Made by a program: the position numbers and the translations under genes. Below, in pieces: positions 2,502 through 10,096 of a stretch of 39,808 nucleotides of DNA. Location of the stretch: positions 1-39,808 of IMG/VR virus record IMGVR_UViG_3300025151_000105; one strand, 5' to 3'. Source of the DNA: a virus. The notes beneath the pieces are model-generated. The model had not been told where the DNA came from. It made no database searches and saw only the letters and a program-made list of their open reading frames with translations. Position 1 is the first letter of the stretch, and every line of letters begins with the position of its first letter.

Positions 2502-2720
2502 TCATAATATTTTAATATCCCCTGTCGCCAAAAGTATCTCAAACCCAGATCTTGTCAAGTATGAAAACGTACCGTCTGAATAAAAAACATGATAGGATTC
2601 TTCCCAATGAATCAATGAAGTTTCATCTCCTGTGGATGTTGAACCTATTTTGTAAACATTAATCACTATACCAACCTTGCCATTATCAACGATTAATGTA
2701 CCTTGCTTCACCTCCGTCAT
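2502..2720 (-). CDS. small SH3-like protein
   Basis: A 72-residue protein: KQGTLIVDNGKVGIVINVYKI, then WEESYHVFYSDGTFSYLT. The GxLI...GIVI pattern matches the other small beta-barrel proteins of this window. The start overlaps the 3' end of the protease gene by 35 bases, with GAGAG just upstream. Function unknown. Confidence 0.6.
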   Translation of the reverse strand: MTEVKQGTLIVDNGKVGIVINVYKIGSTSTGDETSLIHWEESYHVFYSDGTFSYLTRSGFEILLATGDIKIL

Positions 2721-3375
2721 AATCTCTCAGTGCCTTATAAATATCTTTATCTGATATGCTAGCAAGCGGCCTAACTAAACATAGTCCATTAAGTAGTTGC
2801 GGCGGCATGCGAGGGTCATAGTAGCCAACTTTAATTCCGTGTAGCACGCCGAGAAAAGCTCCAGTATCATCAAAGATAGAAGCACCAGACGATCCGAGCC
2901 AGCAGAAGGTCTGAAAATAAAAACTGAGGTATTGTGATCCAGCGAGCTGGCCTTCGGTATAAACCATACCATAATCAGATGGCCACGAAACCATATCTAA
3001 GTTCATGCCAATCTCGGGTTGACTGCGGTAAAACTTTACAGGCTTCAATGGTAATTCATGATTTGGTTTTAATATTGCCCAATCAAGAAGTTCATCTACA
3101 ACTACAGGATCTAGTGTGAACTCCTCTCCAGTGTATTCAATTAGTTTAACTTCATGACACGAATCAATAACATGAGCAGCGGTTAAAATAAATTTTTGAT
3201 CTCGAAGCTTGAAGTGGTTGCCAGAGCCAGCACCGGCTACCTTTCCATCTTGATAACACAAAATCATATAAGAAGATTCCATTTTATCTTCGAGTTTGTT
3301 TTTGCCAATGAACGGGCCGATGCCCATCATTGAAAGAGATATAATTCCCAATAAAATAATTTTCAGATACCGCAT
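2686..3375 (-). CDS. exported trypsin-like serine protease
   Basis: A 229-residue protein. Residues 4-20 form a hydrophobic signal peptide or membrane anchor. The chymotrypsin/DegP-type triad is visible: TAAHV with His68, LLDWAILK with Asp98, and GSSGAS with Ser163. The usual GDSGGP is degenerate around the serine (Asp to Ser, Gly to Ala, Pro to Ser), so activity is likely but not certain. GGGGAG precedes the ATG. An exported protease is unusual in a phage; it could act on envelope proteins during lysis or on surface proteins of the infected cell (inference). Confidence 0.75.
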   Translation of the reverse strand: MRYLKIILLGIISLSMMGIGPFIGKNKLEDKMESSYMILCYQDGKVAGAGSGNHFKLRDQKFILTAAHVIDSCHEVKLIEYTGEEFTLDPVVVDELLDWAILKPNHELPLKPVKFYRSQPEIGMNLDMVSWPSDYGMVYTEGQLAGSQYLSFYFQTFCWLGSSGASIFDDTGAFLGVLHGIKVGYYDPRMPPQLLNGLCLVRPLASISDKDIYKALRDYDGGEARYINR

Positions 3376-6272: not shown

Positions 6273-7847
6273 TTAGTCCTTTAAATCTACAATCGCATAA
6301 TTCATTGTGAGCAATGTTGATGCGGCAGACACAGCATTTTGAAGGGCACATCGGGTCACTTTACAAGGGTCCGTAATACCTGAATCTAACATGTTGGTGT
6401 AATCTCTAGTGAGAAAATTATAGCCTTCATTTTGTGTCTTACTAATTACTCCGTTAACAATTAAATCAGCAGATTCACCAGAATTCAGACACAATTGTCG
6501 CAGAGGTTCTTGAACTGCATCGAGAATAATTTTTGCACCAAGTGCCTGCTCTTCGTTATCAGTTTCAACATAAAGCCCAACAGATGCTCGGAGTAATCCA
6601 ACTCCTCCACCGGGGAGTATGCCCTCCTCCAATGCAGATCGCACGGCCTCAAGTGCATCATCGATTCTGTGCTTCTTTTCAGTCATCTCTATTTCTGTTG
6701 CAGCACCCACGCGAATAACAGCGACACCAGAAGCAAGTCGTGTAATTCTTTCTTGTAGTCTTTCGCACGCTTGCATATCTTCTGTTTCTTTAATTTCGTT
6801 TTTAATCGATTCAATTCTATTTTCAACTGCTTCCTCATCACCTTGGCCTCCTACAATTGTCGTTGTGAACTTTCCAATGGTAGCACTCTTTGATCTACCA
6901 AAGTTTCTTAATTGAACATTTTTTAGGAGCATACCATCTTCCCTAGTAAGGAATGTCGCACCAACCGAGGCGGCTAAATCTCTTAGAATAGACCGTCTTT
7001 CTTCACCATAACGAGGCGATTTAACAGCACATACCTTCATCGTTCCACGAACCGCATTTGCAATCAAAGCAGCGAGTGCTTGTCCGCTAACATCATTAGC
7101 AACGATTAGCAATGGTCTTTGATCTTTTGCAGCGATCTCCAATGCTGGATATACTTGTTCGATGGTATCAATCTGTTCATCTGTGACCAGTATGAGCGGA
7201 TCATGATACTCGGCTGTGTTCTGTCTCTCGTTTGTAATAAACTTTGGAGAAAGGAATCCTTGATCAATACGAAAGCCCTCGATGAGATCTAAAGATGTTT
7301 CAATTGATCTCGCCTCTTCAACAAGAACAGTTCCATCTTTTCCAGCGGAGTCAACAGCATTGGCGATAAGTGTACCGATGCCTTCATCATTGTTTGCTGA
7401 GATGGTTGCCACATGTTCAATATCTTGCTTGGATTGGATAGGTCTTGCGATTTCCTTGAGGTTTGTTACAATTGCCTCGCAAGCCTTATCCATTCCTCGC
7501 TTGATTTCGGTTGGTGAAGCACCAGCCACAATATACTTTTGGGCTCGGTTCAAGATACCACGAGTGAGAATAGTTGCTGTAGTCGTGCCATCTCCGGCAT
7601 TCGATGCAGATTGCTTGGCTGCTTGCTTAACAATCTGTGCTCCCATATTCTCAAATGGATCTTCAAAGGTTATATGTTCTGCGACGGTTACACCGTCTTT
7701 CGTTACCATTGGGATGTTCTCTCCCTGATACATAATACCCACGGTTCTCCCTCTGGGTCCCAATGTAGATCCTACATTGTCTGCGAGTTTGTTAACTCCG
7801 TTTAATACTTTTGTTGATAATTCTTGACCGTTATTATAATGCTTCAC
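6273..7847 (-). CDS. groEL: GroEL-type chaperonin
   Basis: A 524-residue Hsp60. TLGPRG (28-33) and GDGTTTAT are the nucleotide-binding signatures, and RIDDALEAVRSALEEGILPGGG carries the conserved ATPase Asp. The frame has an earlier ATG at 7895, but that overlaps the preceding gene by 38 bases; GGAGG plus four bases before GTG at 7847 gives an N-terminus that aligns with E. coli GroEL. The Gly-Gly-Met tail is absent, the protein ending IVDLKD. Large phages such as phiEL and OBP also encode GroEL. A GroES-like partner is at 24315-24593. Confidence 0.97.
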   Translation of the reverse strand: MKHYNNGQELSTKVLNGVNKLADNVGSTLGPRGRTVGIMYQGENIPMVTKDGVTVAEHITFEDPFENMGAQIVKQAAKQSASNAGDGTTTATILTRGILNRAQKYIVAGASPTEIKRGMDKACEAIVTNLKEIARPIQSKQDIEHVATISANNDEGIGTLIANAVDSAGKDGTVLVEEARSIETSLDLIEGFRIDQGFLSPKFITNERQNTAEYHDPLILVTDEQIDTIEQVYPALEIAAKDQRPLLIVANDVSGQALAALIANAVRGTMKVCAVKSPRYGEERRSILRDLAASVGATFLTREDGMLLKNVQLRNFGRSKSATIGKFTTTIVGGQGDEEAVENRIESIKNEIKETEDMQACERLQERITRLASGVAVIRVGAATEIEMTEKKHRIDDALEAVRSALEEGILPGGGVGLLRASVGLYVETDNEEQALGAKIILDAVQEPLRQLCLNSGESADLIVNGVISKTQNEGYNFLTRDYTNMLDSGITDPCKVTRCALQNAVSAASTLLTMNYAIVDLKD

Positions 7848-7857
7848 TATTCCTCCA

Positions 7858-8085
7858 TTATTTGATTTCGCTAACGCTTTGTGAAATTTCTTCATCCCAA
7901 TCCATTCTCAAACGGATGAGAGGATTGAATGTTGCCGCAACTCGTTCTTGAGTTAGGATGCCTTCGGGTTTTACCAGTTCTCCTTCGATGTCAACAGATT
8001 CAAAGTCGATCTCTGTTCTCTGTTGATAAACAATAATTGGCTCTGGTTCATTGGCAAGAGCCGTTGTTAAAAATAAAAATATCAC
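7858..8085 (-). CDS. secreted protein resembling a gliding-motility family
   Basis: A 75-residue protein starting with GTG, whose first base is the last base of the stop of the Cys-rich gene (TAGTG); GGGGAG lies seven bases upstream. Residues 1-11 form a short signal peptide ending ALA. The mature part carries IDFESVDIEGELVKP and FNPLIRLRMDW. From memory, the IDFxxVxIxGELxKPxG...FxxLIxLR pattern resembles small periplasmic proteins of myxobacteria and Bdellovibrio (CglF-like gliding motility proteins). The function in a phage is unknown. An earlier start at 8109 (TTG) is possible and would add eight residues. Confidence 0.65.
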   Translation of the reverse strand: MIFLFLTTALANEPEPIIVYQQRTEIDFESVDIEGELVKPEGILTQERVAATFNPLIRLRMDWDEEISQSVSEIK

Positions 8086-8231
8086 TATTGATCTCCCCAG
8101 TGACACCAACAGTCATCGCTGCCGCATCTTTCGCATACAATGCTGAGTTCAATACCCCAACCGCAGTCGCAAGGATCACAGCCGCAAGCAGGGCATGCAT
8201 CTTCAATTAATCTCTTTAATATAAACACCAT
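8085..8231 (-). CDS. 48-residue Cys-rich miniprotein with an internal repeat
   Basis: A short gene read directly from the sequence: ATG at 8229-8231, TAG at 8085-8087, AGGAG just upstream overlapping the preceding stop. After a basic hydrophobic lead (MVFILKRLIEDA) come CPACGCDPCDCGWG (13-26) and CERCGSDDCWCHWG (33-46). Both fit CxxCGxDxCxCxWG, so the protein is a tandem duplication of one metal-knuckle-like motif. It probably binds two zinc ions or an iron-sulfur centre (inference). The stop overlaps the start of the secreted protein, so the two are translationally coupled. No family recognised. Confidence 0.75.
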   Translation of the reverse strand: MVFILKRLIEDACPACGCDPCDCGWGIELSIVCERCGSDDCWCHWGDQ

Positions 8232-8237
8232 TTTCTC

Positions 8238-9203
8238 CTAGTCAATATTTTTTTCTACAGATTTTGCTAATTTGTCCGCATCAGCCGCAGCTTGAGCACC
8301 AACCGTTTTGTTTTCAAAGTCTGTAAAATAAATATTAAGGTTGTTGGTCAAATTCGCAAAAGCATCAAAAATATCTGTAACTCTTTGACCAAGGCGAACA
8401 ACATATTTATTTGCGATACCTTTGAGTTGCTCTCTCGATCCAAAATCAAGACGAGCGATCAGCATGTCATTGGGAAGCTTATTAGTTTTAATATCACCAT
8501 TTGCAAATTGGGTGATATCATAATCTCCTTTAATACCTTGTGATTCATCGCCAACAGTAAATTGATAAAAATCAACCCCCAAAATGCTTTTGTCTTGTCT
8601 TTCTTTTTGTCCAATTATGTATGTGATTGGCTTTTGAAATCGCTCTACACCATTTTTAAGGTTTTTAACAGAACCTGAAACTGTTTTATATCCTTTGAAA
8701 AAGAACTTTAAGGATAACGGAGTTTCTCCATCAGAATCAACAAGGTCTTCAATGGGTAGATTGCCGCCAGCGAGTTCAGTAACCTGTGTCCCTTTTATGA
8801 GGGCAGCCAACAAAGCTTCAAACATAAAGCCTCCAGTTTGATCGTTAAAGTCTTCAATAACACCAGCAAGAGAATCAAGAAAGACAAGATTGGCAATAAT
8901 TGTCTCAATCTTTGACTCGTTTATGCAACTCTCATCACAGTCCTTGATAAAAGTTTGGACTGAACTTATTTTTTCTTGAAGTGTATCGCCCTGTATATTG
9001 CTGAAGAATCTTTCAATAATCTGTCTGTCATCAGATGCAGGGTCTCCCCACTTTTCAGATAGTGCGAACTTTGGGAGTTGTAATGTCTTTGTTACATCTT
9101 CTTTATCTTGCTTGAGTGGCATTTGTCTTTCAACAATGCCATTAAATTTATTCGACATCACCTCTTGAATAAGGTTGTCTAAATATTCTGGTGTTAATTT
9201 CAT
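8238..9203 (-). CDS. putative capsid-associated protein
   Basis: A 321-residue protein. The open frame reaches 9248, but the ATG at 9203 overlaps the endolysin stop (TAATG) with GAGG upstream. The N-terminus MKLTPEYLDNLIQEVM resembles T4 capsid-targeting sequences, and LIQE fits the T4 prohead protease cleavage rule (L/I)xE. The body contains FNDQTGGFMFEALLAALIKG and long beta-rich stretches; the C-terminal helix is AADADKLAKSVEKN. No family recognised; it may be packaged with the capsid. Confidence 0.6.
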   Translation of the reverse strand: MKLTPEYLDNLIQEVMSNKFNGIVERQMPLKQDKEDVTKTLQLPKFALSEKWGDPASDDRQIIERFFSNIQGDTLQEKISSVQTFIKDCDESCINESKIETIIANLVFLDSLAGVIEDFNDQTGGFMFEALLAALIKGTQVTELAGGNLPIEDLVDSDGETPLSLKFFFKGYKTVSGSVKNLKNGVERFQKPITYIIGQKERQDKSILGVDFYQFTVGDESQGIKGDYDITQFANGDIKTNKLPNDMLIARLDFGSREQLKGIANKYVVRLGQRVTDIFDAFANLTNNLNIYFTDFENKTVGAQAAADADKLAKSVEKNID

Positions 9204-10096
9204 TATTTGATTTCCTCTAGAAGTTTTTTGAGATCTAAGCCAGCACAATCAATCTTGCGATTAGTTAAATGATAGTGTGATATAAATCCATTATACCTAC
9301 CATTGACGGCAGCCTTACATATACCTGTGGATGTTTTGTTGTTTGGAGTCAAGGGGCACTGTAACGGTATTTCATATGCATTATGAATTGCCTTCATCAA
9401 AGCTTTTAAAGCCTCTTGTTGAACATCGTAAAAACCTAAGAAAGGATCAAGATAATTTCCGTGAACCTTTTTTCTCTCCCACAATGGTCTTTCTCCATAG
9501 CCATTTTTTACATACCAGCTTTGATGTTTTGGATAATATGCATTTGCAATCTCGACTCCAATCGAGTTGTTGTTCCACTTAGAGGAACCAGCATGCCATG
9601 CGATGTGATTACAATCCATAAATTGGTAGATAGTCCCGTCATTATCGATTCCAAAGTGAACAGAGATTCCCCTATTCTTTAAAACTCTATAGCAACTCTC
9701 AGATGATAAGCAAACATCCCAATGACAAACGAAATTGGTAACCTCTCTTCTCTCTCGAACAGTTCGGAATCCACTCGTCAAGCGGAGACCACCTGCTTCT
9801 ATCGGGAGAACAACACGAGGCCACTCAATTTCAAAATAATTGTTGTTGCAAAGAATAAAAGACTCTTTACGATTGATGAGCTCACGAGGAGCATGATCCA
9901 TCAAAGTAGACTCTCTAACAGTCCAAATGCGACGATAAGTCGTTGGCCCAACAAGACCATCAGCCGTGAGACCATACTCTTTCTGAAATGCTCTAACTTT
10001 TTTAAGAAGATCTTCATCAAAGTAGGTGGCCCCAAACCAATCTGGGGTCCACCCGAGTTTTGCAGATGAAGATTCGTTATAAAAAATTTTATCCAT
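9203..10096 (-). CDS. endolysin: N-acetylmuramoyl-L-alanine amidase with peptidoglycan-binding domain
   Basis: A 297-residue modular lysin. Residues 25-60 form a PG_binding_1 domain (VRAFQKEYGLTADGLVGP). The rest is an Amidase_2 (T7 lysozyme-like) domain: His125 in FVCHWDV, VHFGIDNDGTIYQFMD, HIAWHAG, and near the end HYH (274-276) with Cys284, matching the His/His/Cys zinc site. It would cut the amide between MurNAc and L-Ala. No signal peptide, so export would need a holin; the protein at 6005 is a candidate. AAGGA precedes ATG. Confidence 0.92.
   Translation of the reverse strand: MDKIFYNESSSAKLGWTPDWFGATYFDEDLLKKVRAFQKEYGLTADGLVGPTTYRRIWTVRESTLMDHAPRELINRKESFILCNNNYFEIEWPRVVLPIEAGGLRLTSGFRTVRERREVTNFVCHWDVCLSSESCYRVLKNRGISVHFGIDNDGTIYQFMDCNHIAWHAGSSKWNNNSIGVEIANAYYPKHQSWYVKNGYGERPLWERKKVHGNYLDPFLGFYDVQQEALKALMKAIHNAYEIPLQCPLTPNNKTSTGICKAAVNGRYNGFISHYHLTNRKIDCAGLDLKKLLEEIK

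Follow-up and report, generated by a model that had tools for sequence, protein, structure and literature searches.

The question raised by this locus is what a 48-residue, cysteine-rich protein of a marine phage, built around a repeated motif, does, and whether it forms one device with the exported protein of a host-like family whose gene overlaps its own. The locus lies in a 39.8-kb IMG/VR virus record, analyzed here as a whole and referred to as the window, in which the recognizable genes are encoded on the minus strand and include those for an amidase, ClpP, GroEL, Hsp20, a DnaB-like helicase and a class II ribonucleotide reductase.

A conserved microprotein gene overlapping its neighbor

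The Cys-cluster microprotein is encoded at 8085..8231 (minus strand), from an ATG start to a TAG stop. Its product, MVFILKRLIEDACPACGCDPCDCGWGIELSIVCERCGSDDCWCHWGDQ, contains nine cysteines and three tryptophans, and 28 of its 48 residues belong to two strict copies of CxxCGxDxCxCxWG: copy 1, CPACGCDPCDCGWG, at residues 13-26 (8154..8195, minus strand), and copy 2, CERCGSDDCWCHWG, at residues 33-46 (8094..8135, minus strand). The initial annotation, which had described the protein as consisting largely of these two copies, was right as to coordinates and frame, on the minus strand. The motif of copy 1 was also found in 62 viral contigs, whereas copy 2 is a clade-specific variant that lacks the middle cysteine of the wider phage module, C-x2-C-x-C-[DN]-P-C-D-C-x-W-G, and its CWC-type pattern was confined to the window clade in a pattern search. 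The microprotein has no signal-like segment and is therefore predicted to be cytosolic and reduced. In profile searches none of the metal-binding families passed its own cut-off for the microprotein, and a profile search of the PDB gave no match.

The Shine-Dalgarno sequence of the microprotein, AGGAG (8235..8239, minus strand), overlaps the stop of the upstream ORF (TAGGAGAAAATG), a conserved 321-residue frame of no assigned function (8238..9203, minus strand) that ends just before the microprotein and had no family match in profile searches; upstream of it lies an N-acetylmuramoyl-L-alanine amidase, or endolysin (9203..10096, minus strand; Amidase_2, 1.1e-18). On the other side, the TAG stop of the microprotein (8087-8085) and the GTG start of a 75-residue protein predicted to be exported (7858..8085, minus strand) share base 8085 (TAGTG), as had been noted initially. 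The codons for W-G-D in copy 2 (TGG GGA GAT) contain GGGGAG (8093..8098, minus strand), the likely ribosome-binding site of this second gene, and TAATGGAGGAATAGTG precedes GroEL, the next gene (6273..7847, minus strand; Cpn60, 6.4e-67). The start of GroEL is likely GTG 7847 rather than ATG 7895, because GGAGG precedes it at 7852-7856 and because it is conserved in relatives; the ATG-based ORF (6273-7895, minus strand) is probably 16 codons too long.

Searches of viral contigs recovered this gene pair from related phages. Four relatives (L002, L003, L004 and L010) encode the two-copy protein, the near-identical contigs L012 and L013 carry copy 2 alone (MIKICKRCNSQDCWCHWGDQ), and L014 carries copy 1 alone. 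In the window and in all listed relatives the cysteine-rich ORF overlaps the start of the partner gene, by TAGTG in the former and by TAATG or ATGA in the latter, and in those relatives whose loci are long enough to show them an amidase, ClpP and GroEL lie near the pair. By the Nei-Gojobori method, dN/dS of the cysteine-rich protein was 0.07-0.17 in five of the six computable comparisons and 0.56 for the nearly identical L002-L003 pair, which has seven differences; for the partner it was 0.05-0.2. Both genes are hence confirmed as real and conserved, and the finding that would have spoken against the initial annotation, a frame not conserved in related phages, was not obtained. Translation of the microprotein frame is supported by the Shine-Dalgarno sites, by conservation in relatives and by purifying selection. 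No defence family matched either member of the pair. Elsewhere in the window, 2686-3375 (minus strand) encodes a secreted-looking trypsin-like protease (Trypsin_2, 2.9e-12; PADLOC LmuA-like match, 6.8e-10), and an exported protease-like ORF lies near the partner-type gene of another contig, L149.

A cysteine module recurrent in uncultured phages

The wider motif, CxxCxC[DN]PCDCxWG, was searched as a back-translated pattern and matched in 62 viral contigs. The estimated chance probability of about 2^-48 per position gives an expectation of well under one match in IMG/VR, and chance is therefore excluded as an explanation; a mis-spaced copy-2 pattern, used as a negative control, returned 29 junk matches. 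The pattern demanded the cysteines, DPCDC and W-G, and their invariance among the 62 contigs is consequently built in. Among the matches are 50 different DNA sequences, which specify 41 peptides; since the third codon positions of these sequences agree at only 48%, selection acts on the peptide. A stricter version of the motif had no match in 84,980 species genomes of bacteria and archaea, and a near-identical version had one, on a contig of 306 kb from a Methylococcaceae MAG (L082; NHDW01000006.1) that we read as a large phage, possibly misbinned. The motif in that contig neighbors DnaJ-, MetK- and QueF-like ORFs, as named by eye.

In the 49 records that were searched whole, a general C..C....C.C.WG pattern was present in 45 and its reversed control in none. 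It occurs once per record, even in contigs of 185-289 kb, with two copies in three window-clade records only. The module takes the form of a free protein of about 20 residues (MSEQCPYCECDPCDCDWGNE), of a C-terminal tail, or of a segment near the N-terminus of longer ORFs. Proteins bearing it as a tail include an IscU (NifU_N, 8.5e-52), a weakly Smr-like protein and several unnamed proteins. The IscU gene (L005 5611-6108, equivalent to L072), whose tail is CEACGCDPCDCGWG, overlaps a ClpP-like gene at its 3' end. ClpS lies directly beside the motif in nine contigs representing two gene orders (L030, L031, L035, L038, L045, L051 and L077; L036 and L079). A link to Clp proteases was considered on the grounds that the motif adjoins ClpS in these two gene orders and ClpP in L072, but it is not claimed, given a post hoc p=0.004 that becomes 0.18 without the adjacent cases.

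A second cysteine-rich micro-ORF, of the type MEKCECCGCNPSNCKCECCDHK, precedes the motif in another frame in one phage group. Members of this C.CCGCxP..C.C.CC family (L042, L044, L058, L067, L078, L120 and L121, with variants in L022, L039 and L046) mostly lie just before the CDPCDC motif frame or overlap it. The relaxed core C..C.CDPC.C was found in at least 120 viral stretches, in open frames of many sizes. Some of these matches are metallothionein-like peptides and others are inserted into large proteins of structural appearance (for example in L202, L203, L215, L224, L239, L242, L248 and L266); W-G is often absent from the core matches. As just four of the 62 W-G loci are among the core matches listed, the total number of core occurrences may, by rough extrapolation, exceed a thousand. 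In 399 Pseudomonadota genomes the core occurred twice, one occurrence being that of the Methylococcaceae MAG. A described phage family close to the module is phrog_27696 (PHROGs v4; function not assigned, 44 positions), which resembles the single-motif microproteins and matches them in 10 of 48 records, with E-values down to 9e-6; the two-copy protein of the window has no match to it. A tblastn search of INPHARED for cultured relatives gave no credible match to the cysteine-rich peptides, for which the low-complexity filter may hide hits, and no matching phage cysteine motif was found in the literature searched.

The CglF-like partner and its likely host

The initial annotation had assigned the exported partner to a host-like family, and profile searches place it with CglF/GltF. 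It matches NF033764 (CglF) with E=3.3e-12 and 46.3 bits over model positions 26-88 of 88, that is, over the full mature domain. CglF, identical to GltF, is an 89-residue protein of the envelope that has a signal peptide and localizes to Glt gliding clusters (PMC3169522; PMC4488436); by 2011 gltF had been reported from no groups other than Myxococcales and Bdellovibrionales (PMC3169522). The phage protein resembles its counterpart in Myxococcus xanthus (MXAN_4868) in the homology of the mature part, in size and perhaps in having a signal-like N-terminus. It differs in that it scores 46 bits against an equivalog cut-off of 90, which all 49 phage records likewise miss, in being encoded by a phage and in the absence of recognizable glt genes near the phage copies. 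The N-terminus is hydrophobic, ending in ALA and very short in the window clade, and in relatives ending in A-x-A, on the basis of which the 75-residue protein is predicted to be exported.

An alignment search identified 98 viral stretches encoding relatives of the partner, 80 of which were kept, and CglF was matched by all 50 aligned phage proteins, comprising that of the window and 49 relatives (best 7e-17). CglF was not detected in 200 Pseudomonadota genomes, a result consistent with the narrow distribution, although no control genome matched either. The family assignment suggests a host of the Myxococcota/Bdellovibrionota type. One phage group carries an Rz-like spanin beside the CglF-like gene (8.7e-4), and in other groups the neighbors are coiled-coil proteins that have a hydrophobic segment at the C-terminus; given these neighbors, a role in lysis is conceivable. 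An o-spanin identity was rejected, as the CglF-like proteins inspected have no lipobox cysteine after the signal sequence. The CglF-like gene of L191 is immediately followed by a Flp-pilin-like ORF (DEEGQSTVEYMLLISVIVIAIVAAAYVFIEPF). Structure prediction of the partner with AlphaFold gave poor models (pLDDT 52 and 64), too low for a fold search. The tblastn search of INPHARED returned no credible relative of the CglF-like protein, a weak match to P-TIM68 being discarded because it falls within a hypothetical gene of 1.3 kb next to the terminase. No phage CglF was found in the literature searched, and the arrangement seen here is not covered by any described phage family, in agreement with the initial impression that it was unfamiliar from phages.

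Apparently separate modules and their candidate functions

The idea that the cysteine-rich protein and the exported protein constitute one device fared less well. Most of the 62 viral contigs carry the motif without a CglF-like gene alongside, most contigs with a CglF-like gene are absent from the motif matches, CglF is present in eight of the 49 records, four of which lack the cysteine motif, and in the one phage L051 the two genes are about 126 kb apart. The overlap itself is a weak sign of special partnership, because in the motif-bearing loci 317 of 750 other genes (42%) also have the next start close to their stop. With motif and CglF mostly apart and the overlap ordinary, the coupling shows co-expression and not a two-part device; the two genes look like separately mobile modules, associated locally in one phage clade, rather than a dedicated pair. 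A regulatory, maturation or escort function of the cysteine-rich protein toward the CglF-like protein would account for the clade-wide retention of the overlap despite loss of either motif copy, yet in view of the separate distributions, and of products predicted to reside in different compartments, we regard it as improbable.

The explanation we put forward, with about even confidence, is that of a cytosolic metal-thiolate microprotein carrying two copies of a mobile phage module, encoded next to a separate exported envelope protein. Binding of a thiophilic metal by the microprotein is most likely, because of the fixed C-x2-C-x-C-D-P-C-D-C spacing and the lack of a signal sequence. Each motif copy would form a compact site, most likely for Zn(II), with Cu(I) or an Fe-S cluster as possibilities, and the metal would fold the peptide around itself for docking on a protein of the host or of the phage. 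The "metal knuckle" label applied initially to the motif pair is plausible on this reading of the residues: like a CCHC zinc knuckle protein, the microprotein would hold two short cysteine-based candidate metal sites, although the CCHC knuckle is C-x2-C-x4-H-x4-C whereas the window motif is C-x2-C-x4-C-x-C and has no profile match. Asp-Pro, Asp and Trp-Gly point to a defined surface, and thus to a docking target over bulk chelation; their role at the protein level is open to more doubt than that of the cysteines, because these positions were required by the search and W-G codons are often a ribosome-binding site. The CglF/GltF-family protein probably acts at the envelope of a Myxococcota/Bdellovibrionota-type host, either disturbing Glt-type machinery or helping lysis, and the cysteine-rich gene, the CglF-like gene and GroEL are translated in succession and thereby made together.

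The surface residues also bear on whether the peptide might instead sequester or supply metal, or buffer thiols during infection, in the manner of a metallothionein and without a specific protein target. Like metallothioneins (PF12749) the window protein is short and cysteine-rich with CxCxxCxC spacing, some metallothionein-looking peptides share the core of the module, and the sister micro-ORFs (such as MEKCECCGCNPSNCKCECCDHK) are very cysteine-rich; however, it has fewer cysteines, only nine in 48 residues alongside three tryptophans, its weak PF12749 match reaches 14.8 bits against a gathering cut-off of 22, and the conserved Asp-Pro, Asp and Trp-Gly together with a single copy per genome better fit a defined surface. 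Such buffering is accordingly a possibility that we take seriously while thinking it unlikely.

Should the act of translation matter rather than the product, the cysteine-rich frame would be a leader peptide controlling the next gene, through Cys-tRNA or nascent-chain metal sensing, with the W-G codons serving as ribosome-binding site. A start codon follows TGGGG by 4-14 nt in 19 of the 27 motif ORFs ending within 4 aa (control 17%), the next start is near the stop in 70% of motif-terminal genes against the 42% background (p=0.0035, relatedness ignored), and the downstream genes vary. The motif also occurs internally and near N-termini, however, peptide-level conservation extends beyond the cysteine codons, synonymous codons vary and no convincing RNA structure was found at the window gene junction (z=-1.95), all of which make a leader function hard to favor. 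The IscU bearing the motif as a C-terminal extension (L005/L072) would fit a module that receives or delivers Fe-S clusters, but with IscU in just two of 49 records, one of them fused, this seems very unlikely. CxxCxCDPCDC may loosely resemble methanobactin cores, and the protein could be envisaged as the precursor of a copper-binding product modified in the manner of methanobactin or bufferin; MNIO (PF05114) was nevertheless found in none of the 49 records and radical SAM in only three, many records being fragmentary, and we give this reading very little credence.

For the metal-site microprotein with a separate envelope protein, a broader and more tentative reading, which we consider rather doubtful as a whole, is that CxxCxC[DN]PCxC(xWG) represents a metal-site module, so far undescribed and specific to phages, that captures one conserved host target, and that CglF/GltF-type proteins disable or open the envelope machinery of gliding-type hosts. 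If true, the module would be spread over many large phages, free or added to unrelated proteins, and CglF/GltF-type proteins would be a standing part of the phages of gliding-type hosts. A 14-residue module that recurs in uncultured phages and is nearly absent from bacteria makes a clear candidate for a metal-dependent tool produced by phages, of a size that allows direct synthesis and testing. Roughly a hundred viral stretches encode CglF/GltF-like proteins, which point to phages of little-studied gliding or predatory lineages and offer a handle on how phages treat the host envelope.
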